Below, one piece after another: positions 7,161-25,918 of a stretch of DNA of 64,000 nucleotides. Numbering within the stretch: position 1 is the first letter of the stretch; every line of letters starts with the position of its first letter. The stretch is from Nonomuraea rubra. Lineage in GTDB: Bacteria > Actinomycetota > Actinomycetes > Streptosporangiales > Streptosporangiaceae. The notes under the pieces are model-generated. The model saw only the letters and a list, made by a program, of their open reading frames with translations, searched no databases and was not told the DNA's origin. The DNA lies in assembly GCF_014207985.1 (NCBI RefSeq), contig NZ_JACHMI010000001.1, positions 4,881,001-4,945,000 of the forward strand. The letters are read 5' to 3'. Both the position numbers and the translations under genes were made by a program.

Positions 7161-8390
7161 ATGGCGCACGATGAGATCATCGACCACTACTCCGCCCTCG
7201 CCCGCGCCGCGGACGCCGGCCGGGCCGCCGCCGACTGCGGGCAGGACGCGTTCGAGCGGGGCGGCTTCGGCCCGGCCGGTTACGACGAGCTGGGCGTGCT
7301 GCCCGAGGGAGCGGTCCTGGCCAGCCTGGGCTGCGGGAACCCGGTGGCCGTCGCCCGGCTGCGGCCCGGCGAGGTCGTGCTCGATCTCGGCTCGGGCGGC
7401 GGCATCGACGTGCTGCTGTCGGCCCGCCGCGTCGGCCCGGAGGGCAGGGTCTACGGGCTGGACGCCAGCGCGGACATGCTGGCACTGGCCCGGCGCAACG
7501 CCGGGCAGGCGGGTGCCCGCAACGTGGAGTTCCTGCACGGCACGATCGAGCGCGTGCCGCTGCCGGACCGGGCGGTGGACGTGGTCATCTCCAACTGCGT
7601 GATCAACCTGTCGAGCGACAAGGCCGCGGTGCTGGCGGAGGCGTTCCGGGTGCTGCGGCCGGGAGGCCGGTTCGGCGTCAGCGACGTGGTGGTGGACGGC
7701 GAGCAGGACCCTGAGCGGCGGGCCGCGGCCGAGCGGCGCGTCGGCTGCGCGGCCGGCGCGCTCCCGGCGGGCGAGTACCGCGGGCTGCTGGCCGCGGCGG
7801 GCTTCACCGGCGTGCGCGTCACGCTGACCGCGGACCATGGCGACGGCGTGCACTCGGCGATCGTCCAGGCCGCCAAGCCGGCGGCCCCGCCGGAGGTGGA
7901 GATCCGGCCGATGCGCGACGGCGACGCCGATGAGGTGCTGGCCATCTACCAGGCCGGGCTGGACACCGGCCAGGCGAGCTTCGAGACCGTCGCCCCGAGC
8001 TGGGCGGGCTTCACCGCCGCCAGGCTGCCCCACCTGCGCTACGTGGCCTGCGACACGGGCACCGGCCAGGTGCTCGGCTGGGTGGCCGCCTCGGCGGTGT
8101 CGTCCAGGCGGGTGTACGCGGGGGTGGTCGAGCACAGTATCTACGTCCATCCGGGCTGCCAGGCCCAGGGGGTCGGCCGGGCGCTGCTGGAGGCGTTCAT
8201 CGCCGCGGGCGAGGACGCCGGCGTCTGGACGATCCAGTCCGGCGTCTTCGGCGAGAACGCCGCCAGCCTGGCCCTGCACCGGGCGCTCGGCTTCCGGACC
8301 GTCGGGGTACGGGAGCGCGTCGGGTGCCACCGCGGCGTCTGGCGGGACGTCCTGATGATCGAGCGCCGCAGCGCCGTCACGGGGACCTGA
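7161..8390 (+). CDS. arsM: Fusion of arsenite methyltransferase (ArsM) and ArsN/PAT-type N-acetyltransferase
   Basis: A 409-residue two-domain enzyme. Residues 1-240 are an ArsM-type SAM methyltransferase, with SAM motif [17 protein letters not shown], the family segment SLGCGNPVA and SNCVINLS. Cysteines 26, 58, 146 and 196 sit where ArsM proteins place their As(III)-binding cysteines. Residues about 247-409 are a GNAT domain closest to phosphinothricin/arsinothricin acetyltransferases ([46 protein letters not shown]). ArsM methylates arsenite; ArsN acetylates the alpha-amino group of arsinothricin or phosphinothricin. AGGAG lies before ATG 7161. Fusion in one chain is unusual and suggests joint handling of inorganic and organic arsenic. 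Confidence 0.9.
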
Positions 8391-16408: not shown

Positions 16409-19400
16409 TCATGGTTCCTGACCGTCGCCCAGGAGGGCGCGGACCTCGCCCGCCTCCGGGGCGCCGATCTCCGTGCAGATCGTCCGGGCCCGCCGCCAGT
16501 GCTCAAGGCAGGCGTCCGGACGGCCGAGGCGGCGGCAGGCGTGGCCGAGCGTGAGGCGAGTACGGGCTTCGCCGAGACGGTGACCGGTCTCCCGGTGGAT
16601 CTCCAAGGCCGGCCGGGCGTGCTCGACGGCCTGGTCGTCCCGGTTCCCGAGGTGGTGGAGGCCGGCGAGGGCGGTGAGGGCCGCGCCTTCGAGCAACCGG
16701 TAGCCGTCCTGCCGGGCGAGGGCGAGCGCCTCCTCGGCGGCGGGGAGGGCGTCATCAGGGTGGCGGACGGCGGCCAGGCCGAGGAGGGCGGTCAGCTCGG
16801 GGGCGCGGGCCCTGGTCTCGCGCGCGATGCGCAGGGCCTCTTCGTGGTGCCGGGCGGCGTCGTGAGGCAGGCCGAGCCGCCCGCAGACGGAGGCGAGGGT
16901 GTTGAGCGCCTCGGCCTCGAACCGGCGGTTCCCGGTGTCGCGCGCCAGGGCCAGCGCGGACCGGGCGAACTCTCGTGCCTCGCCGTCGCGGCCGGTGTCA
17001 CGGTGAACGTCGGCGAGCAGGCGCAGGGTCTCGGCCTCGGTGTCCCGGTCGCCGATCTTGCGCTCGATCTCCAGGGCCTGGAACAGCAGGTCCCGAGCCT
17101 GGCCTGTCCGGCCGAGCAGGTGGCAGACCTCCCCGAGGTTGTTGAGGTCGATGGCCTCGGCCCCGGGGAAGCCGAGTTTCCTGTCGAGGATCAGGGCCTG
17201 CTCGAAGAACCCGGCCGCCTGCTCCAGCCGTCCCAGCGCCTCGTGCACCAGCCCGAGATTGCCCAGGCTGGCGGCCTGCCCGGCGAGCCGTCCCGTCCGC
17301 TGGTTCACCGCGAGCGCCCGGGTGAGGCAGGCGGCGGCCTCGCCGAGCCGGCCTGAGTCGAAGTACACGCTGCTGAGGTTGCCCAGCGCGGCGGCCTGGC
17401 CGTCCGGCCACCCGGCCTGCTGGAAGAGCTCCGCCGCGTTGGTGTAGTGCTCGGCGGCCTGTTCGAAGCGGGTCTGGTGCAGGTACGCGTCGGCGAGGCT
17501 GAGCTCGGCCGCCGCCTGGGCCGCCGGCGCGTCGTCGGCCCGGGCGTCGGCGAGACCGGCGTGGGCGAGGGCCAGCCAGTCCGCGGCGTACATGCGCAGC
17601 CAGAAGTAGCCGCGCAGGATGTCGGTGAGCCGCCACGCGACGGAACGCGGCCCGTGTTCGGCGGTGTGCTGCGCGACGGCGAGCAGGTTGCCGCGTTCGG
17701 CTTCCAGCCAGGCCAGCGCGGCGGTGTCGCCGGCGAACCGCGGGGCCGATGGCGGTCCGGGCAGGGGCAGCCGGAGCTTCTCCGGGTAGAGCAGCCGGGC
17801 GGCGGCGTCGGCGGTGCGGAGGTGGTGGTCGTACAGGCGGTGTGCCGCGGCCTGCCGATCGTGCTCGTGCTCCTCCTGGAGCGCGCGCTCCCTCGCGTAG
17901 AGGCGCAGCAGGTCGTGGAAGGCGTACCGGGAGGCGGCGCGCCGTTCGACGAGGTGGGCGCCGGCGAGCTCTTCCAGCACCCGTACGGCCTGACCGGGCG
18001 TGACACCGGCCAGCGCGGCGGCGCCGTCGGCGTCGAAGTCCGAGCCGGGATGCAGGCCCAGCAGCCGGAACACCCTGGCGGTGCCGGCGGGTAAGCGCTG
18101 GTAGGACCACGAGAACACGGCCCGCACGGCCGCCCGCGGATCCCCTCCGGCGTTCAGCAGGTCCAGCCGCCGCCGCTCGTCGGCGAGCTCGGCGACCAGG
18201 TCCGCCAGCGGCGCGGCGGGACGGGCGGTGGCCATCTCGGCGGCCACCCGCAGCGCCAGCGGCAACCGCGCGCACAGCCCGGCGAGCGCCGCGGCGGCGC
18301 CCGGCTCGGCGTCGGCCCGCGCCCCGATGAGCGTACGCAGGAGCAGGGTCGCGTCGGCGGCGGACAGCAGGTCCAGGTCCAGGCGGCAGGCGCCGTGCAG
18401 CGCCACCAGCCCGGCCAGGGAGTCCCGGCTGGTCACCATCACCACGCAGGACGGCGAGCCGGGCAGCAGCGGGCGGACCTGCTCGACCGACGAGGCGTTG
18501 TCCAGGAGGATCAGCATGCGCCGTCCGCTGACCTCGCTCCGGTATCGGGCGGCCGCGTCGTCCTGCTGCGGCGGGAGGTCCTGCGCGGGCACGCCGAGGG
18601 CGGACAGCAGCCCCGCCAGCGCCTCACCCGCCGTCATCGGCTGCTGGGTGTCGTAACCGCGCAGGTTCACGTACAACTGCCCGTCGGGGAACGCGTCCCG
18701 GACGCGGTGCGCCCACCGTACGGCCAGGGCCGTCTTGCCGACCCCCGCGGTGCCCGAGAGCGCGGAGATGATCACTGCGGTGGGATGCTCGGCCGTCTCG
18801 GCCAGCACGGCGTCCAGCCGGGCGAGTTCGGCGTCGCGGCCGGTGAAGCCGCGCACGTCCAGGGGCAGGAGCGCCGGTGCGCCGGGCCGGCGGGGCGGCG
18901 GCCGGCGCGGCTCGTCGCGCAGGATCGCCTCGTGCAGTTGCCGCAGCTCGGCCCCGGGCTCCGTGCCGAGCTCGTCGGACAGGCGCATGCGGATGGCGGC
19001 GTAGCAGGCCAGGGCCTCGGCACCGCTTCCCGCCGCGTGGAGCGCGCGCATGAGCGCCGCGGCGAGCGGCTCCACCAGCGGGTACTCGGCCAGCAGGTCG
19101 CGGAGCCGGCCGGTCGCGGTGCCGGGGTCGCCGGCCTGCAGCTCGGCGTCCGCCCAGGCGACGACCGCGTCCAGGTGCTGCCGCCGCAGGCTCTCCCGCA
19201 CGCGTGCCGCCCATGCTCCGGGGATCCCGGCCAGGGGTTCCCCGCGCCACAGGGCGAGCGCGTCCCGCAGCAGGCGCAACCGTCCGGTGTCCGAGCCCCG
19301 GGCCTGCTCGACGAGCCTCCGGAACAGGTGCAGATCGACTCGTTCCGGATCGGCCTCCAGCACGTATCCGCCCGACCGGCGGACCAGCCGGGCGGCCTCG

Positions 19401-19642
19401 TGCCCGTCGCCGGCCCGTTCGAGCATCCGCCGGATCCGCGCGACGTGGGAGTGCAGCGCTCTTCGCGCGCCGTCCGGTGGCTGCTCGCCCCACACCCGAT
19501 CGACCAGCGTCTCGACCGGCACCGGCCGGCCGGCGTCGGCCAGCAGGGCCGCGAGCACGCTCCGCCGCTGCGGCGGCCCCACGTCCACCCGGCCGGTGGC
19601 CGTCACCAGCTCCACCGGGCCCAACAGCCGGAACTCCGCCAT
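16409..19642 (-). CDS. SARP-family regulator with NB-ARC and TPR domains
   Basis: 1077 residues. Residues about 1-95 are an OmpR-like winged helix (EFRLLGPVELV, RSVLAALLADAGRPVPVETLVDRVWG). The bacterial transcriptional activator domain follows to about 245. An NTPase core has Walker A GTAGVGKTAL and Walker B MLILLDNASSVEQVRPLLPG, and many TPR helices run to the C-terminus. This is the AfsR-like architecture of pathway or global activators in actinomycetes; NTP hydrolysis and TPR contacts tune DNA binding. GGGAG precedes ATG 19642; an ATG 75 bp further upstream is less likely. No biosynthetic cluster adjoins. It lies downstream of a DUF5360 gene in the same direction. Confidence 0.93.
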   Translation of the reverse strand: MAEFRLLGPVELVTATGRVDVGPPQRRSVLAALLADAGRPVPVETLVDRVWGEQPPDGARRALHSHVARIRRMLERAGDGHEAARLVRRSGGYVLEADPERVDLHLFRRLVEQARGSDTGRLRLLRDALALWRGEPLAGIPGAWAARVRESLRRQHLDAVVAWADAELQAGDPGTATGRLRDLLAEYPLVEPLAAALMRALHAAGSGAEALACYAAIRMRLSDELGTEPGAELRQLHEAILRDEPRRPPPRRPGAPALLPLDVRGFTGRDAELARLDAVLAETAEHPTAVIISALSGTAGVGKTALAVRWAHRVRDAFPDGQLYVNLRGYDTQQPMTAGEALAGLLSALGVPAQDLPPQQDDAAARYRSEVSGRRMLILLDNASSVEQVRPLLPGSPSCVVMVTSRDSLAGLVALHGACRLDLDLLSAADATLLLRTLIGARADAEPGAAAALAGLCARLPLALRVAAEMATARPAAPLADLVAELADERRRLDLLNAGGDPRAAVRAVFSWSYQRLPAGTARVFRLLGLHPGSDFDADGAAALAGVTPGQAVRVLEELAGAHLVERRAASRYAFHDLLRLYARERALQEEHEHDRQAAAHRLYDHHLRTADAAARLLYPEKLRLPLPGPPSAPRFAGDTAALAWLEAERGNLLAVAQHTAEHGPRSVAWRLTDILRGYFWLRMYAADWLALAHAGLADARADDAPAAQAAAELSLADAYLHQTRFEQAAEHYTNAAELFQQAGWPDGQAAALGNLSSVYFDSGRLGEAAACLTRALAVNQRTGRLAGQAASLGNLGLVHEALGRLEQAAGFFEQALILDRKLGFPGAEAIDLNNLGEVCHLLGRTGQARDLLFQALEIERKIGDRDTEAETLRLLADVHRDTGRDGEAREFARSALALARDTGNRRFEAEALNTLASVCGRLGLPHDAARHHEEALRIARETRARAPELTALLGLAAVRHPDDALPAAEEALALARQDGYRLLEGAALTALAGLHHLGNRDDQAVEHARPALEIHRETGHRLGEARTRLTLGHACRRLGRPDACLEHWRRARTICTEIGAPEAGEVRALLGDGQEP

Positions 19643-19736
19643 GTGCCACTCCCGATCCCGATCGCAGCCGTGCCTGCCGTGAACCGTGGACGCCGGCCCA
19701 GCCTCAGTCTGAATCATGGGCGGGCCCGCCGCCCCG

Positions 19737-20141
19737 CTAGGAGGCGGGGACGCCGGGCCGTGACCGGGTGAGGCAGACGATCGCGGGGATCGGGAAGAGC
19801 AGGAGGTAGAGGTTCGGCAGCCACCAGAGCAGCGAGAAGTCGCCGCGCAGCGTCCAGAACGCGATCGCCATCAGGCCGGAGGCCATGGTCAGCACGAGCG
19901 AGACCAGCATCAGCCCCGGCCCCGACGGCGAGCTCCGGCGCAGGAGGTACAGGCTGGCCAGGCCGGTCGCGCTGGCCGCCAGGTCGATCCAGAGGAACGA
20001 CCAGTTCCAGTCGGCCACCACCGGATCGGAGTAGCCGTTGAACGCCCACTCGGGCGGGATCAGCCCCAGACCCGTGACGGTGAAGTAGATCACCAGCGCC
20101 AGGTCCGTGAAGAGCATCAACGCCTTAGTGACGGGCAGCAC
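19737..20141 (-). CDS. Small four-helix membrane protein (YvaD/DUF5360-like)
   Basis: 134 residues with four predicted membrane helices: about 5-27, 47-66, 77-95 and 103-122. The segment TDLALVIYFTVTGLGLIPPEW followed by ADWNWSFLWIDL matches the YvaD/DUF5360 family as I recall it. Molecular function is unknown. Its start lies within the 3' end of the TetR gene (17-bp overlap), so both are on one transcript. The TetR protein may therefore control this membrane protein, possibly as a stress or efflux-related accessory. Confidence 0.8.
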   Translation of the reverse strand: MLPVTKALMLFTDLALVIYFTVTGLGLIPPEWAFNGYSDPVVADWNWSFLWIDLAASATGLASLYLLRRSSPSGPGLMLVSLVLTMASGLMAIAFWTLRGDFSLLWWLPNLYLLLFPIPAIVCLTRSRPGVPAS

Positions 20142-20676
20142 GGTCGATCTCCTCCATCAGGTGGCGCCTGGTCTGCTCGTGCAGCGCCGGGTCCGGCTCG
20201 CCGAGGCCGAGGAGCCTGGCCGCCCACCAGCCGTCGACGGCCAGCCGTACGGCCGTCGCCACGGCCGGGTCGATGCCGTCGTCGGTCAGCCTGGCCTGCC
20301 AGGCGGCGTACCTGTCCCGCAGCGGCGCCAGCCCCGCCGGGTCCACCAGCACGGCGGCCAGCAGGGCGGCGGTCGCGCGGTCGGCCGGGGTCCTGGCCGT
20401 GGTGTGGTGCTCGGGGATCGTCGCGTTCAGGTAGGCGCGCAGGTAGTCGCCCGGCTCGCCGCCCGTCTCGGCCAGGGCTCGGTCGAAGGCTCCGGTCAGC
20501 CGGTCGACCATGGCGGCGACCAGGGCCTGCTTGGTGGGGAAGTGGTAGAACAGGCCGCCCTTCGACACGCCTGCCCGCCGGGCCACCGCTTCCAGGGTCA
20601 GGGCTTCCGCCCCTTCGGACAGCAGGACCTCGGCGGCGGCGTCGAGCAGCCGTTCCTTCGAGCTGGGTCGTGGCAT
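20125..20676 (-). CDS. TetR-family regulator, leaderless and autoregulated
   Basis: 183 residues. Helix-turn-helix TLEAVARRAGVSKGGLFYHFPTKQALVAAMV follows ERLLDAAAEVLLSEGAEAL. Start ATG 20676 lies directly beside a 32-bp perfect palindrome. On the coding strand TATAGT ends six bases before the ATG, consistent with a leaderless transcript whose promoter is covered by the operator. It overlaps the downstream DUF5360 gene by 17 bp. Upstream, 47 bp away and in the same direction, is an MDR oxidoreductase that may also be read into this unit. The inducer is unknown. Confidence 0.92.
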   Translation of the reverse strand: MPRPSSKERLLDAAAEVLLSEGAEALTLEAVARRAGVSKGGLFYHFPTKQALVAAMVDRLTGAFDRALAETGGEPGDYLRAYLNATIPEHHTTARTPADRATAALLAAVLVDPAGLAPLRDRYAAWQARLTDDGIDPAVATAVRLAVDGWWAARLLGLGEPDPALHEQTRRHLMEEIDRAARH

Positions 20677-20678
20677 GA

Positions 20679-20710
20679 GGAAACTATACCGGCTGACCGG
20701 TATAGTTTCC
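20679..20710. promoter_or_regulatory. TetR operator overlapping its promoter
   Basis: 14-bp arms, perfect: GGAAACTATACCGG (20679-20692), spacer CTGA, CCGGTATAGTTTCC (20697-20710). It lies between the MDR oxidoreductase stop and the TetR start, and each arm contains a -10-like hexamer. Confidence 0.85.
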
Positions 20711-20723
20711 CTCGCCAAGGGGA

Positions 20724-21725
20724 TCAGAGCCTGACCAGCATCTTCCCGACGTTGCCGCCGCGCATCATGTCCAGGAACGCGGCGGGAGCCCGCTCGATGC
20801 CCTCGGCCACGGTCACCTCGGTGTGCAGCGACCCGTCCGCCAGCCAGCCGGCCGCCTTGCCGATCCACTCGGGGAAGAGGTGGAAGTAGGAGTTGACCAG
20901 CATGCCGCGCAGGGTCGCGTCCTTGGCGGCCAGGGCGAACAGATTGCCCGGGCCGGGGACCGGCTCGGTGGCGTTGTAGGAGCTGATCGCACCCACCATC
21001 GCGATCCTGCCGCCGTGGCGCAGCGCGTCGATGGCCGCCACCAGGTGGTCGCCGCCGACGTGGTCGACGTAGACGTCGATGCCGTCGGGGGCGGCCTCGG
21101 CGAGCTGCCCGGCGAGCGATCCGGCACGGTAGTCGATCGCGGCGTCGTAGCCGAAGTCCCGCACGAGCTTCTCCGCCTTCAGCGGCCCGCCCGCGGAGCC
21201 GATCACGCGGGAGGCGCCGAGCTTGCGGGCGAGCTGCCCGGCGATCGTGCCCACCGCTCCGGCCGCCGCCGAGACGAAGACCACGTCGCCCTCCCGTACG
21301 GGCGCCACGTGCGTCAGGGCCGCGTAGGCGGTCAGCCCGGTGGTGCCCAGCACGCCCAGCCACGCCTCGGCGGGAGCCAGGGTGAGGTCCGCGACGGTCG
21401 CGGCCGCGGCGTCCACCACGGCGTACTCGCGCCAGCCCAGGAAGTGCACGACGGTCGCGCCCACCGGGACGCCGTCCGCCCGCGAGGCCACGACCTCGCC
21501 GATCGCCGAGCCGCCCAGCGGCGCGCCGAGCTGGAACGGCGGCAGGTAGGACTCGGCGTCGTGCATGCGCTCCCGCATGTAGGGGTCGACCGACATCCAG
21601 GTGTTGCGCACCAGGACCTGGCCCTCCGCCAGGTCGGGCAGCGCGGTGGTGACCAGCGCGAAGTTCTCCGCGCCCGGCTCCCCGGCGGGACGGGCGGCCA
21701 GGTGGATCTCGCGGTTCACGGTCAT
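20724..21725 (-). CDS. NADP-dependent MDR oxidoreductase (CurA / LTB4-dehydrogenase type)
   Basis: 333 residues. N-terminal substrate domain (QVLVRNTWMSVDPYMRERM) and NADP-binding fold VVFVSAAAGAVGTIAGQLARKLGASRVIGSAGG. No structural or catalytic zinc cysteines. The family reduces alpha,beta-unsaturated ketones or aldehydes, including prostaglandin-like and curcumin-like enones, with NADPH. GAGGAG precedes ATG 21725. A 22-bp motif at 21780-21801 is repeated before the second oxidoreductase at 25007, with the SARP regulator encoded between them. Co-regulation in response to an electrophile or quinone is inferred. Confidence 0.92.
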   Translation of the reverse strand: MTVNREIHLAARPAGEPGAENFALVTTALPDLAEGQVLVRNTWMSVDPYMRERMHDAESYLPPFQLGAPLGGSAIGEVVASRADGVPVGATVVHFLGWREYAVVDAAAATVADLTLAPAEAWLGVLGTTGLTAYAALTHVAPVREGDVVFVSAAAGAVGTIAGQLARKLGASRVIGSAGGPLKAEKLVRDFGYDAAIDYRAGSLAGQLAEAAPDGIDVYVDHVGGDHLVAAIDALRHGGRIAMVGAISSYNATEPVPGPGNLFALAAKDATLRGMLVNSYFHLFPEWIGKAAGWLADGSLHTEVTVAEGIERAPAAFLDMMRGGNVGKMLVRL

Positions 21726-21779
21726 GGTGGTGCTCCTCGTTCGTCGTGCCGACTGCTTCGCGACTCACTGTGGACGGGG

Positions 21780-21801
21780 GCGCGCATGATCCGCTGGGGG
21801 T
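21780..21801 (-). promoter_or_regulatory. Shared 22-bp motif upstream of MDR oxidoreductase 1
   Basis: Read toward the oxidoreductase, the site is ACCCCCAGCGGATC then ATGCGCGC. It ends 54 bases before ATG 21725 and matches 21 of 22 bases at 24940-24961. It also lies just upstream of the SARP start at 21824. Confidence 0.7.
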
Positions 21802-21823
21802 TCGCTGCGGGTACGGTGACCTG

Positions 21824-24800
21824 GTGCGATTCGGTGTACTTGGCCCTCTTTCCGTGTGGACCGACGACGGGAGGCTCGTGCGGGTCCCCGAGGTGAAGGT
21901 CCGCGCGCTGCTGGCCGACCTGCTGGCCCACGAGGGCCGTCCGGTGCCTGCCGACCGCCTGGCCGAGGACCTGTGGGGGGACGAACCACCCGGCAACCCC
22001 GTCAACACGCTGCAGACCAAGGTGTCCCAGCTGCGCCGCGCCCTGGAGCAGGCGGAGCCGGGAGGCCGCGAGCTGGTGGCCTTCCAGGCGGCGGGCTACG
22101 TCCTGCGTGCCGCCGACGTGGACGCCGCCCGCTTCGCCGCGCTGCTCGCCCAGGCCCGCGCCGCCACCGATCCGCGGGCGAGGGCCGGGCTGCTGTCGGA
22201 CGCCCTGGCGCTGTGGCGCGGCCCGGCCTACGCCGACTTCGCCGACGAGGAGTTCGCCCGCCTCGCGGCCACCCGGCTGGAGGAGCAGCGCCTGACCGCG
22301 CTGGAGGAGCAGGCGGAGGTGCGGCTGGAGCTGGGCGAGCACAGCCTGATGGCCGACGAGCTGGGCGAGCTGGTGGCCGCGCACCCCCTGCGCGAACGCC
22401 TGCGCGCCGCCCACCTGCGCGCGCTCTACCGGTCCGGACGGCAGGCGGAGGCCCTGGCCGGGTACGACGACCTGCGGCACCGGCTGGCCGACGAGCTGGG
22501 CCTCGACCCCGGCCCCGAGCTGGCCGGCCTCCACCAGGCGATGCTGCGCCAGGACCCCTCGCTCGCGCCCCCGCGCCCGCGGACGAACCTGCCCGCTCCC
22601 CTCACCGAGCTGATCGGCCGCGAGCAGGCCGTGGCCGAGGTCGGCGCCCTGCTCGGCGCGGGCAGGCTGGTCACGCTGACCGGTCCCGGCGGGGTCGGCA
22701 AGACCAGGCTCGCCCTCGCGGTCGCCGGCCTCGCCGCCGGCGCCCATCCCGACGGGGTGTGCCTGGTCGAGCTGGCGGGTGCCTCGGGCGAGACGGCGAC
22801 CGTGGCCGGGATCGTGGCCGCCGAGCTGGACGTACGCGACGACACGGCGACGGGCTCGCGCCCCGGCGTGCGCCCGGCCGCCCTGCCCCACCGGCTCGCC
22901 GACGCCCTGCGCGGCCGGCGGCTGCTGCTCGTCCTGGACAACTGCGAGCACGTCGTCGAACCGGTCGCCGAGCTGGTGGACCTGCTCCTGCGAGCCGCCC
23001 CCGGCCTGCGCGTGCTGGCCACCAGCCAGGAGTCGCTGGCGATCCCGGGGGAGACCCTGTACGCGGTGCCACCGCTCGCGCTCCCGGTGCCCGGATCGGA
23101 CCCGGCGCGGGCCGCCTCCGTACAGCTGTTCGTGGCCCGCGCCGCGGCCGCCGCGCCCGGGTTCGTGCTCGACGAGGACAGTGCGCCCTCGGTGGCGGCG
23201 ATCTGCCGGAGGCTGGACGGGCTGCCGCTGGCGCTGGAGCTCGCCGCCGCCCGGGTGCGCACGCTGGGCGTGCGCGGCGTGGCCGACCGGCTGGACGACC
23301 GCTTCCACCTGCTGACCGTCTCGGGACGGGGCCGCCCCGCCCGCCAGCAGACCCTGCGCGCGGTGATCGACTGGAGCTGGGAGCAGCTCACCGAGCAGCA
23401 GCGGCTGATCCTGCTCAGGCTGGCCGTCCACCCGGGAGGCTGCACGCTGGAGGCGGCCGAGGCGGTGTGCGCGGGCCCCGGGCTGGACCCCGGGGCGGAC
23501 GTGGCCGGCCTGCTGGACCAGCTCGTGACCAGGTCGATGGTCGAGTCCGCCGGCGGCATCCGCTACCGGCTGCTGGAGTCGATCGCCGCCTACTGTCTCG
23601 AACGGCTCGACGGCGCCGACCCGGTCTTCCAGCGCCGCGACGTCTACTACACCGAACTGGCCGAACGGGCCGCGCCCCACCTGCACGGCCCCGGACAGCG
23701 CCAGTGGCTGGAACGGCTGGACAGCGAGGCGGCCAACCTGCGGGCCACGCTGGAGCACACCACCGACCCCGCGCTCGCCCTGCGCCTGGCCGGCGCCCTG
23801 GCCTGGTACTGGTACCTGCGCGGCAGGCACCGTGAAGGCCGCGCGTCCCTCGCGGCGGCGCTGTCGCTGCCCGGCGCGGAGTGCGCCAGGACGGCGGCGT
23901 GGGAGACCGGGTTCGCCATGCTCACCGGCGACGGCACCGACCTGCTGCGGCGCAGCCGTACCGCGGCGCGGGCGCTGGACGCCCACGACGCCCGGTCACG
24001 CTGGTTCCTCGCGCTCGCCCACCTGAGCTTCGGGGACGCCGCCACCGCCGGGGGCCTCCTGACCGAGGCGCTGGCCGGGTTCCGCGCCGCCGGCGACCGG
24101 TGGGGCGAGGCGGCGGCGCTGGCGAGCCGCGCCAAGCAGGCGATGTTCCAGGGCGACCACGCCCTCGCCGAGCGGTCCGGCACCGAGAGCCTGACGATCT
24201 TCGAGGAGCTGGGCGACGGCTGGGGACGGCTGCAGGCCTCCGACATGCTCGGCTACCTCGGCGAGATCACCGGCGACTACGAGCGGGCCGCCCGCCTGCA
24301 CAGGGAGGGCCTGCGCCTCGCCGAGGACCTGAGGTTGTGGACCGACGCGTCGTACCGGCTGTCCAGCCTCGGCCGGCTCGCCCTGCTGACCGGGGACCTG
24401 GACGGATCCAGGGAGCTGCACGAGCGCGGCAGGCGCCTGGCGGCCGAGCAGTCCAGCAGCTTCGCCGAGGAGTTCGCCCGCGTCGGGCTCGGCCTCGTCG
24501 CCCGCCGCGCCGGCGACCTCGACGCGGCCGAGCGGCTCTTCCAGCAGTCGCTGGCCTGGAACCGCCGCCTGCGGGCCGACTACGGCCTGCCCTTCTACGG
24601 GGTGACGCTGCTGCTGGCCGAGCTGGGCTTCATCGCCGAACAGCGCGGCGACACCGCCGCGGCCAGGTCCCTGCACCTGGAGGGGCTGGCCGCGGCCCGC
24701 GAGGTCGGCGATCCGCGCGCCATCGCCCTGGCCAGGGAGGGGCTGGCCGGGGTCGCGGCGGCCGAGGGCGCCTACGAGGAGGCGGCGGCGCTGCTGGAGG

Positions 24801-24904
24801 AGGCCGCCGCGCTCAGGGAGTCGGTCGGCGCGCCCCTGCCGCCCGCGGAGCGCGGCGACGTCGACCGGATCGCCGCCGCCATCCGCGCGGCGCTCTCGCG
24901 CTGA
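21824..24904 (+). CDS. SARP/AfsR-type regulator with NB-ARC and TPR domains
   Basis: 1026 residues. N-terminal winged helix (RFGVLGPLSVW, KVRALLADLLAHEGRPVPADRLAEDLWG), activator domain with AHLRALYRSGRQAEALAGYDDLRHRLADELGLDPG, then an NTPase with Walker A GPGGVGKTRL, Walker B LLLVLDNCEHV and motif GLPLALELAAARV, a winged-helix linker and C-terminal TPR-like helices. GTG 21824 is the likely start: VRFGVLGPL fits the family, and TACGGT lies seven bases before it, suggesting leaderless translation. It sits between two oxidoreductase genes that share an upstream motif, making it their probable activator. Confidence 0.93.
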   Translation: MRFGVLGPLSVWTDDGRLVRVPEVKVRALLADLLAHEGRPVPADRLAEDLWGDEPPGNPVNTLQTKVSQLRRALEQAEPGGRELVAFQAAGYVLRAADVDAARFAALLAQARAATDPRARAGLLSDALALWRGPAYADFADEEFARLAATRLEEQRLTALEEQAEVRLELGEHSLMADELGELVAAHPLRERLRAAHLRALYRSGRQAEALAGYDDLRHRLADELGLDPGPELAGLHQAMLRQDPSLAPPRPRTNLPAPLTELIGREQAVAEVGALLGAGRLVTLTGPGGVGKTRLALAVAGLAAGAHPDGVCLVELAGASGETATVAGIVAAELDVRDDTATGSRPGVRPAALPHRLADALRGRRLLLVLDNCEHVVEPVAELVDLLLRAAPGLRVLATSQESLAIPGETLYAVPPLALPVPGSDPARAASVQLFVARAAAAAPGFVLDEDSAPSVAAICRRLDGLPLALELAAARVRTLGVRGVADRLDDRFHLLTVSGRGRPARQQTLRAVIDWSWEQLTEQQRLILLRLAVHPGGCTLEAAEAVCAGPGLDPGADVAGLLDQLVTRSMVESAGGIRYRLLESIAAYCLERLDGADPVFQRRDVYYTELAERAAPHLHGPGQRQWLERLDSEAANLRATLEHTTDPALALRLAGALAWYWYLRGRHREGRASLAAALSLPGAECARTAAWETGFAMLTGDGTDLLRRSRTAARALDAHDARSRWFLALAHLSFGDAATAGGLLTEALAGFRAAGDRWGEAAALASRAKQAMFQGDHALAERSGTESLTIFEELGDGWGRLQASDMLGYLGEITGDYERAARLHREGLRLAEDLRLWTDASYRLSSLGRLALLTGDLDGSRELHERGRRLAAEQSSSFAEEFARVGLGLVARRAGDLDAAERLFQQSLAWNRRLRADYGLPFYGVTLLLAELGFIAEQRGDTAAARSLHLEGLAAAREVGDPRAIALAREGLAGVAAAEGAYEEAAALLEEAAALRESVGAPLPPAERGDVDRIAAAIRAALSR

Positions 24905-24909
24905 ACCCC

Positions 24910-24931
24910 GGCCCTCCGGGAGGAGGGGGCC
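24910..24931 (+). terminator. Probable terminator after the second SARP gene
   Basis: GGCCCTCC / GGAGGG(GG)CC stem with a GGGA loop, six bases after the stop codon. Confidence 0.5.
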
Positions 24932-24939
24932 CTGCGCCG

Positions 24940-24961
24940 ACCCCCAGCGGATCGTGCGCGC
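24940..24961 (+). promoter_or_regulatory. Shared 22-bp motif upstream of MDR oxidoreductase 2
   Basis: ACCCCCAGCGGATC then GTGCGCGC, same orientation relative to its gene as the copy at 21780-21801. It ends 45 bases before ATG 25007. Candidate binding site for the intervening SARP. Confidence 0.7.
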
Positions 24962-25006
24962 GTCGCGCCAGGGTGGTCCCCGTCACCCACTGATGGAGGA
25001 GCAACG

Positions 25007-25918
25007 ATGCGAGCCCTGACCTTCACCCCGGACCTCTCCTTCGAGACCGTGCCCGACCCGGTGCCCGCGCCCTCCCAGGCGCTGGTCCAGGTGTCGGCGT
25101 TCTCGCTCAACTTCGGGGAGATCGCCTTCAGGAGCCCGGACGCCCGGCCGGGACACGTCCCCGGCTGGGACGCCGCCGGGGTGGTCGTCCAGCCCGCCGC
25201 CGACGGCTCAGGCCCCGCCGCCGGCACCCGCGTGGTCACCTTCGGCTGGTCGGGAGCCTGGGCGGAGCTGCGCGCCGTGGACACCGCCGAGCTGGCGGTC
25301 GTGCCCGGCACCGTCGACCTGGGGCAGGCAGCCGCGCTGCCGGTCGCCGGGGTCACGGCGCTGCAGGCCGTCCGGCGGCTCGGCCCGGTGGCCGGCCGCA
25401 GGGTCCTGGTCACCGGCGCGTCCGGAGGCGTCGGCCGGTTCGCCGTGCAGCTCGCCGCCCGCGCGGGAGCGCACGTGATCGCCTCCGCCGGCAGCCCCGC
25501 CCGCGCGGCGGGACTGCCCGAGCTGGGCGCCGCCGAGATCGTCATCGGTCCGGAGAACCTGCGAGGCCGGGTGTACGGCGTGCTGGACAACGTGGGCGGG
25601 CCGCAGCTCGCGCAGGCGTTCTACCGGCTGGAGGACGACGGCGTGGTGATGGCCATCGGACGGGCCGCCCGCGAGGCCACGGTCATCGACTTCGAGCTGG
25701 CGGGCACCCGGTCGGCGCGCGGCCGGATCGAGAACTTCAACGTGACCGCACCGTTCGGCGCCGACCTCGCCCACCTCGTCGGGCTGCTGGCCGATGGCGA
25801 GCTGGACGTGCGGGTCGGCCTGCGCGGGCCGTGGGACCGGGCGCGGGAAGCCGCCGAGGCCCTGCTCTCCCGCCGCGTCGCCGGGAAGGCGGTCCTCGAC
25901 GTACGGCGCGCGTCCTGA
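25007..25918 (+). CDS. Zinc-independent MDR oxidoreductase (quinone-reductase-like)
   Basis: 303 residues. GroES-like N-terminal fold with SLNFGEIAFRSP and GWDAAGVVVQPAADG, then nucleotide-binding loop VLVTGASGGVGRFAVQLAARAGAHVIASAG. No catalytic zinc ligands are seen. Likely an NAD(P)H-dependent quinone or enone reductase. GGAGGAG lies before ATG 25007. Its upstream region shares a 22-bp motif and a CCCCGTC-containing segment with the oxidoreductase at 20724-21725. The two proteins are only distantly related, so the promoter similarity reflects regulation rather than recent gene duplication. Confidence 0.9.
   Translation: MRALTFTPDLSFETVPDPVPAPSQALVQVSAFSLNFGEIAFRSPDARPGHVPGWDAAGVVVQPAADGSGPAAGTRVVTFGWSGAWAELRAVDTAELAVVPGTVDLGQAAALPVAGVTALQAVRRLGPVAGRRVLVTGASGGVGRFAVQLAARAGAHVIASAGSPARAAGLPELGAAEIVIGPENLRGRVYGVLDNVGGPQLAQAFYRLEDDGVVMAIGRAAREATVIDFELAGTRSARGRIENFNVTAPFGADLAHLVGLLADGELDVRVGLRGPWDRAREAAEALLSRRVAGKAVLDVRRAS

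Follow-up and report, generated by a model that had tools for sequence, protein, structure and literature searches.

Actinomycetes have many large SARPs, which are discussed mainly as activators of antibiotic synthesis. A regulator-reductase pair for electrophile stress is known from the TetR-type protein NemR and the Old Yellow Enzyme NemA. In one account of AfsR from Streptomyces coelicolor, the afs box at afsS spans 22 bp with two 11-bp repeats and a -10 box CACTGT, and AfsR itself is likened to MalT-type STAND activators (PMC10936776). A rule described for SARP sites places the 3' repeat 8 bp upstream of the -10 box (PMC4393881). The PimR/SARP-LAL boxes, as presented in PMC5930380, are 22 nt long and contain two heptamers with 4-nt spacers, the regulator being a large ATPase-bearing protein. 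Among the matches listed from titles and abstracts of the open-licence literature, we found no large SARP controlling a neighbouring reductase.

The window, that is, the whole stretch of 64,000 nucleotides of Nonomuraea rubra DNA analysed here, contains a large SARP gene between two oxidoreductase genes, each preceded by a copy of a 22-bp motif. We propose that the motif is very probably an operator through which the SARP activates the promoters of the two flanking genes, as part of a tiny regulon acting in trans. The features of the locus are as follows.

20724..21725, minus strand: CurA-type NADPH-dependent double-bond reductase of the MDR family (Pfam ADH_N_2 and ADH_zinc_N), proposed regulon member 1
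21767..21772, minus strand: putative -10 box CACAGT of the CurA promoter, 7 bp from the operator
21780..21801, minus strand: proposed SARP operator of CurA, ACCCCCAGCGGATCATGCGCGC, with the 11-bp units ACCCCCAGCGG and ATCATGCGCGC
21802..21812, minus strand: third 11-bp unit ACCCGCAGCGA on the CurA side, its last base common to the putative -10 box of the SARP gene
21812..21817, plus strand: putative -10 box TACGGT of the SARP gene, with the GTG start 6 nt further on
21824 (GTG)..24904 (stop), plus strand: large SARP of 1026 aa, proposed activator, with OmpR-type DBD, BTAD, STAND-type ATPase and TPR
24940..24961, plus strand: proposed SARP operator of QOR, ACCCCCAGCGGATCGTGCGCGC, with the 11-bp units ACCCCCAGCGG and ATCGTGCGCGC
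24969..24974, plus strand: putative -10 box CAGGGT of the QOR promoter, 7 bp from the operator
25007..25918, plus strand: QOR-like MDR oxidoreductase (Pfam ADH_N and ADH_zinc_N_2), proposed regulon member 2

Recounting from the coordinates confirmed what the first-pass annotation had reported: the motif lies 54 bp before the CurA ATG and 45 bp before the QOR ATG, in the same orientation relative to its own gene, and the copies are identical at 21 of 22 bases. That annotation took a wide occurrence of the motif before unrelated genes as grounds for refuting the regulon, and the genome shows no such spread: a search of the whole genome (12.88 Mb) returned a single match besides the two copies, at 3 mismatches. 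Given this rarity, and since shuffled windows would yield 0.01 matches when up to 3 mismatches are allowed, the two copies are not due to chance. A looser pattern including the -10 box finds six places in the genome: the two copies match at 0-1 mismatch, and four others at 3 mismatches each.

The N terminus of the SARP matches Trans_reg_C (37.6 bits) and then BTAD (140.5 bits), and its C-terminal part matches AAA_22 (30.7 bits) and TPR_12 (47.6 bits), all above the Pfam cut-offs. The SARP half of the earlier label "SARP/NB-ARC" for the gene between the enzymes is borne out by these domains, but at E <= 1e-3 Pfam gives AAA_22/AAA_16 and not NB-ARC. The protein aligns with the AfsR structure 8k60 at an E value of 1.5e-52, with its GGVGKT and LLLVLDN stretch falling on the AfsR NOD. 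Against the AfsR equivalog model NF053617 it scores 243.2 bits, short of the threshold of 1430, and its closest named relatives are Nonomuraea proteins. When the DNA contacts of AfsR were mapped by hand, W74, P79, T88, S91 and R94 were identical in the SARP and K95 corresponded to R72; as a point against the proposal, S46, Q48, S80, Q81 and R87 were changed to E, K, G, N and Q. Q48 is termed highly conserved in the AfsR account (PMC10936776). The base-reading R92 maps, also by hand, to Q69, in line with a repeat that differs from that of AfsR. We notice a second giant SARP of 1102 aa (16409-19717, minus strand; BTAD, NB-ARC, TPR), whose start lies about 2 kb from the first; the window search found no motif copy within 3 mismatches near it.

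The CurA-type protein matches double-bond reductases in the PDB and scores 301.7 bits against the NCBIfam curcumin reductase model NF058644, below its cut-off of 440. By these scores it is a relative of the curcumin/dihydrocurcumin reductase equivalog and is not filed as a member. The nearest model of the QOR-like protein is PIG3 (TIGR02824), at 99.4 bits against a cut-off of 296.8, which files it under the general MDR family only and not in the PIG3 subfamily. The two enzymes were rightly called diverged, since BLASTP aligns them over 121 aa only, at 40%.

To see the locus in a wider frame, we compared 80 loci, which are the best relatives of the SARP and not a sample of all large SARPs. Two lie too near a contig end, and among the remaining 78 a divergent gene was called heuristically in 70. 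The starts of the divergent ORFs, some of which ran antisense into the SARP gene, were trimmed before BLAST clustering. The clusters comprise 21 NAD_binding_2/RedAm-like reductases, 14 CurA-type reductases, 12 FMN reductases, two SDRs and one Old Yellow Enzyme, besides MFS transporters (10 + 4) and six others. The partner is therefore an NAD(P)H/flavin reductase or an MFS transporter in about 61-64 of the 78 loci, a range given because the ORF calls in L028, L029, L061 and L082 look out of frame and are doubtful. Pfam was run on 14 representative partners, and the one from L014 resembles the QepA, LfrA and SmvA pumps at scores below their cut-offs. Four paralogues in the window's own genome were also examined. 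The one at C1:683381-686416 has as divergent partner an Old Yellow Enzyme that resembles N-ethylmaleimide reductase, below cut-off, and that at C1:1302644 is divergent, by eye, from the start of a RedAm-like gene; the other two have no such divergent partner. As judged from these sequences, the arrangement belongs to a larger family of large SARPs paired with reductases and transporters.

The earlier suggestion that the enzymes detoxify quinones or enones agrees with their families and with the partners of related SARPs. On the other hand, the sites could be SARP operators while the enzymes serve biosynthesis or catabolism, by tailoring a metabolite or using a growth substrate. SARPs are best known as activators of antibiotic clusters, as summarized in PMC10972967, and MDR reductases work in biosynthesis too. 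We consider such a role rather unlikely: none of seven nearby genes checked (metallophosphatase, two TetR, DUF5360, SpoIIE/PAS phosphatase, carbonic anhydrase and PhoD) belongs to a core biosynthetic family, and stand-alone reductases and MFS transporters are what we find as other targets and as partners of related SARPs.

Returning to the proposal of a SARP operator, the motif in the direction of the enzymes is made up of two 11-bp units, first ACCCCCAGCsG and then ATCGTGCGCGs, with CANNGT after a further 7 bp. The reading that suits it best is a SARP operator built of degenerate 11-bp direct repeats. Among 38 aligned sites from 22 genomes of the SARP group, 36 show the operator followed by 7 bp and CANNGT, the exceptions being GACAGT in L022 and AAGAGT in L133; the sites were found by a pattern that includes the -10 letters, so their letter conservation is inflated. 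Across these 38 sites, none of 2000 column permutations matched unit 0, the third unit ahead of the 22-mer, to unit 1, the distal unit, as highly as the real order. For unit 1 against unit 2, the proximal unit, 106 of 2000 did as well, a marginal result. Within the 22-mer the proximal repeat thus resembles the distal one poorly and is weak if taken alone, which counts against the proposal. The proximal unit copies its neighbour more closely at some sites, as in L115 (ACCCCCAGCGA and ACCGTCAGCGG), and more distant relatives have cleaner repeats, such as L082 with ACCGTCAGCGG twice in tandem. Extra repeat units occur in L114 and L121. Recognition helices with NTLQTKVSQLRR or NALQAKVSQLRR accompany ACCnnCAGCGG, an association that is suggestive by eye and confounded by phylogeny. 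The sites have direct repeats at 11-bp spacing with the 3' repeat about 8 bp from the -10 box, as is characteristic of the SARP family.

The start codon of the SARP gene is preceded in 69 of the 80 relatives (L004-L083) by a TANNNT hexamer whose end lies 4-8 nt away, and four shifted control positions gave 0-1 among 78-80 relatives. Since the hexamer sits so close to the start codon, large SARPs of this kind are probably transcribed leaderless. The third unit on the CurA side touches the SARP's own putative leaderless promoter, and the SARP therefore probably autoregulates.

The periodicity extends to the family as a whole. In the 100 bp upstream of the SARP gene, compared with 100 dinucleotide shuffles, self-matches stand out at lag 11 (z 13.0) and lag 22 (z 7.6), and every other lag from 3 to 40 has a z between -3 and 3. 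This sample comprised 74 of the 80 loci, L005-L009 being dropped as near duplicates and one locus for too short an upstream stretch. A control stretch 500-600 bp upstream (73 loci) showed codon periodicity only. Paired local operators, on the other hand, were rejected as a family rule: in a search for a second operator copy within each of 79 of the 80 loci, four (L080, L006, L005 and L004) exceeded the 95% point of the cross-locus null (17.5) and none the 99% point (27.1, a value raised by related loci). We also notice that part of the SARP upstream region of L080 recurs, as an imperfect 59-bp copy, at 7619 on the downstream side of the SARP gene.

The sites track the SARP ortholog. In a sample of 38 genomes of the genus, an ortholog (identity at least 70%) was found in 12, with E-value limits of 1e-250 and 1e-290, which are strict, so that fragmentary orthologs could be missed. 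Sites within 2 mismatches are present in 10 of these 12 genomes and in none of the other 26. Of the remaining two, G281, where only a 744-residue stretch qualifies as ortholog at 71%, has a site at 3 mismatches, and G169 has none. Beyond the genus, sites within 2 mismatches occur in five ortholog genomes (G133, G062, G070, G259 and G218), and in five others, namely G104, G223, G202, G125 and G022, of which the last three were searched and show no ortholog; the G202 match sits inside an ORF. With the looser pattern, 33 sites within 2 mismatches fall in 17 of 18 ortholog genomes and in 0 of 18 others, these 36 genomes having been chosen from prior CurA, QOR or motif matches. Two of the 33 (G289 at 1.3 Mb and G259 contig 23) are probably chance. 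That another regulator or a sigma factor reads the motif, with the adjacent SARP incidental, would agree with the -10-like element after it, SARP binding being a prediction from the sequence. Nevertheless, the 11-bp periodicity upstream of the SARP relatives as a group, and the confinement of sites within 2 mismatches to ortholog genomes in the genus sample, make this explanation very improbable.

A perfect palindrome, AAACTATACCGG-CTGA-CCGGTATAGTTT, lies at 20681-20708, just upstream of a TetR-family gene (20125-20676, minus strand) that directly follows CurA on the same strand. This gene could be the real controller, or the SARP might repress at its sites, given that operators overlapping a -35 region can also block transcription. 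Both versions appear very unlikely to us. The palindrome lies on the downstream side of CurA and has no second match in the genome at up to 3 mismatches, so it is probably TetR's own operator, and the geometry from operator to -10 box matches SARP activation.

We further examined the enzyme genes themselves for the predicted SARP operator. A weight matrix trained on 15 sites, taken from the window and from named-genome loci, was scanned over 600 bp upstream of 58 homologues, namely the best 30 CurA of a longer list and all 28 listed QOR. A site of at least 14 bits, a cut chosen after the scores were known, precedes 28 of the 30 homologues from ortholog genomes and 2 of the 28 others (Fisher value 9.6e-12, with the relatedness of the genomes ignored). 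Omitting nine homologues from the window's or training-site genomes leaves 20 of 21 with a site, and the reversed-sequence control reached at most 12.4 bits. A few cases sit less well with the proposal. The two positives without an ortholog are QORs of G025 and G255, where the SARPs are 60-64% identical. The misses are the QOR of G281 (7.5 bits) and the CurA of G169, where the site on the SARP side is more than 600 bp away; the G169 QOR adjoining its SARP has a weak site of 14.3 bits, barely over the cut. The distance from site to CurA is 221 bp in G218, 564 bp in G246 and 526 bp in G281.

Some of these genes lie far from the SARP. In G264, CurA and an SDR with sites are on contig 1, and the SARP and QOR on contig 2. 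CurA of G218 lies at 4.34 Mb and its SARP at 7.91 Mb, 3.6 Mb apart. In G246, a QOR with a site and the SARP are on separate contigs, with other genes on the relevant sides. In all, sites precede two CurA, one QOR and one SDR gene distant from the SARP, which is why the SARP looks like the head of a small regulon that acts in trans. In G249, a second QOR at 4.17 Mb is preceded by a site of 23.8 bits that lacks a CANNGT box. An NADPH-dependent FMN reductase gene adjoins the SARP and follows a site in both G264 and G218 (the G218 protein judged by eye), and G264 has a nearby PNPOx-like gene under a weaker site, so the added targets are again NAD(P)H or flavin-type enzymes.

Comparison of the interval in related genomes, which the first-pass annotation had proposed, revealed a site on both SARP flanks in eight other genomes (L004, L005, L006, L022, L115, L118, L120 and L133), with an FMN reductase in place of CurA as one flanking gene in L115 and L120. 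Two places 3 kb apart that agree at 21 of 22 bases might suggest a functionless leftover of promoter-region duplication, which is scarcely credible with both flanks occupied in eight other genomes and sites at unlinked genes. Several SARP copies have irregular structures. In L117 (G062), a second operator at 7607-7641 is followed by apparent first SARP codons, as if the SARP start had been duplicated. The SARP copies adjoining CurA in L121 (G249) and L129 (G281) appear in separate pieces, and G249 has an uninterrupted copy elsewhere in its genome.

The compact regulon that the earlier annotation had suspected is thus in all probability real, being well supported by the 11-bp repeats and their -10 spacing, the sites tracking the ortholog and the sites at unlinked enzymes. 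The analysis adds the reading of the motif as a SARP repeat operator before a -10 box, the proposed action in trans and the wider paired family. Beyond the architecture, repeats, promoter geometry, trans-linked sites and SARP association visible in the DNA, we infer SARP binding, activation, STAND-type switching and an electrophile or xenobiotic inducer. By analogy with AfsR and MalT, an inducer and ATP exchange would release the SARP from autoinhibition. Its protomers would then bind the 11-bp repeats side by side over a poor -35 region and help sigma to use the CANNGT -10 box, leading to transcription of the CurA-type double-bond reductase and the QOR-like reductase. Such a regulon would be tiny and mostly local, would act in trans, and may serve the reduction of reactive or xenobiotic carbonyl compounds.

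For one large SARP, the analysis proposes an operator, a promoter geometry and a small regulon in trans; for many of its relatives, it predicts one direct target each. We speculate, tentatively and at somewhat short of even chances, that this SARP branch is a STAND-type (NLR-like) repertoire of chemical sensors and not an antibiotic-cluster branch, with several giants per genome, each having its own recognition helix, 11-bp operator and divergent reductase or multidrug pump. If so, each giant would sense one class of xenobiotic, antibiotic or electrophile and turn on the enzyme or pump that removes it. The signal sensed by a large SARP becomes directly testable, because inducers can be screened for with the promoter of the divergent enzyme or pump, which serves as a reporter as it stands.

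Among known systems, NemR/NemA likewise has a dedicated regulator beside an enone/quinone-type reductase, but NemR is a small repressor, in contrast to the proposed activator of 1026 aa. MalT-type STAND activators share the combination of ATPase sensor and activator with our SARP, whereas MalT has a LuxR-type DNA-binding domain and maltotriose as inducer. PimR/SARP-LAL of polyene clusters also combines 22-nt boxes with a large ATPase-bearing regulator; its C-terminal half is of guanylate cyclase/LAL type and its target is the polyene cluster, unlike here. AfsR (Streptomyces coelicolor; PDB 8k60, 8jke, 8hvr) has the same domain order, DBD-BTAD-NOD-TPR, and AfsR/afsS has the same kind of 22-bp box of two 11-bp direct repeats over the -35 region, the -10 box being CACTGT at afsS against CACAGT (CurA) and CAGGGT (QOR) here. 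In contrast to AfsR, the repeat sequence and several DNA-contact residues differ, and the proposed targets are reductases instead of afsS.
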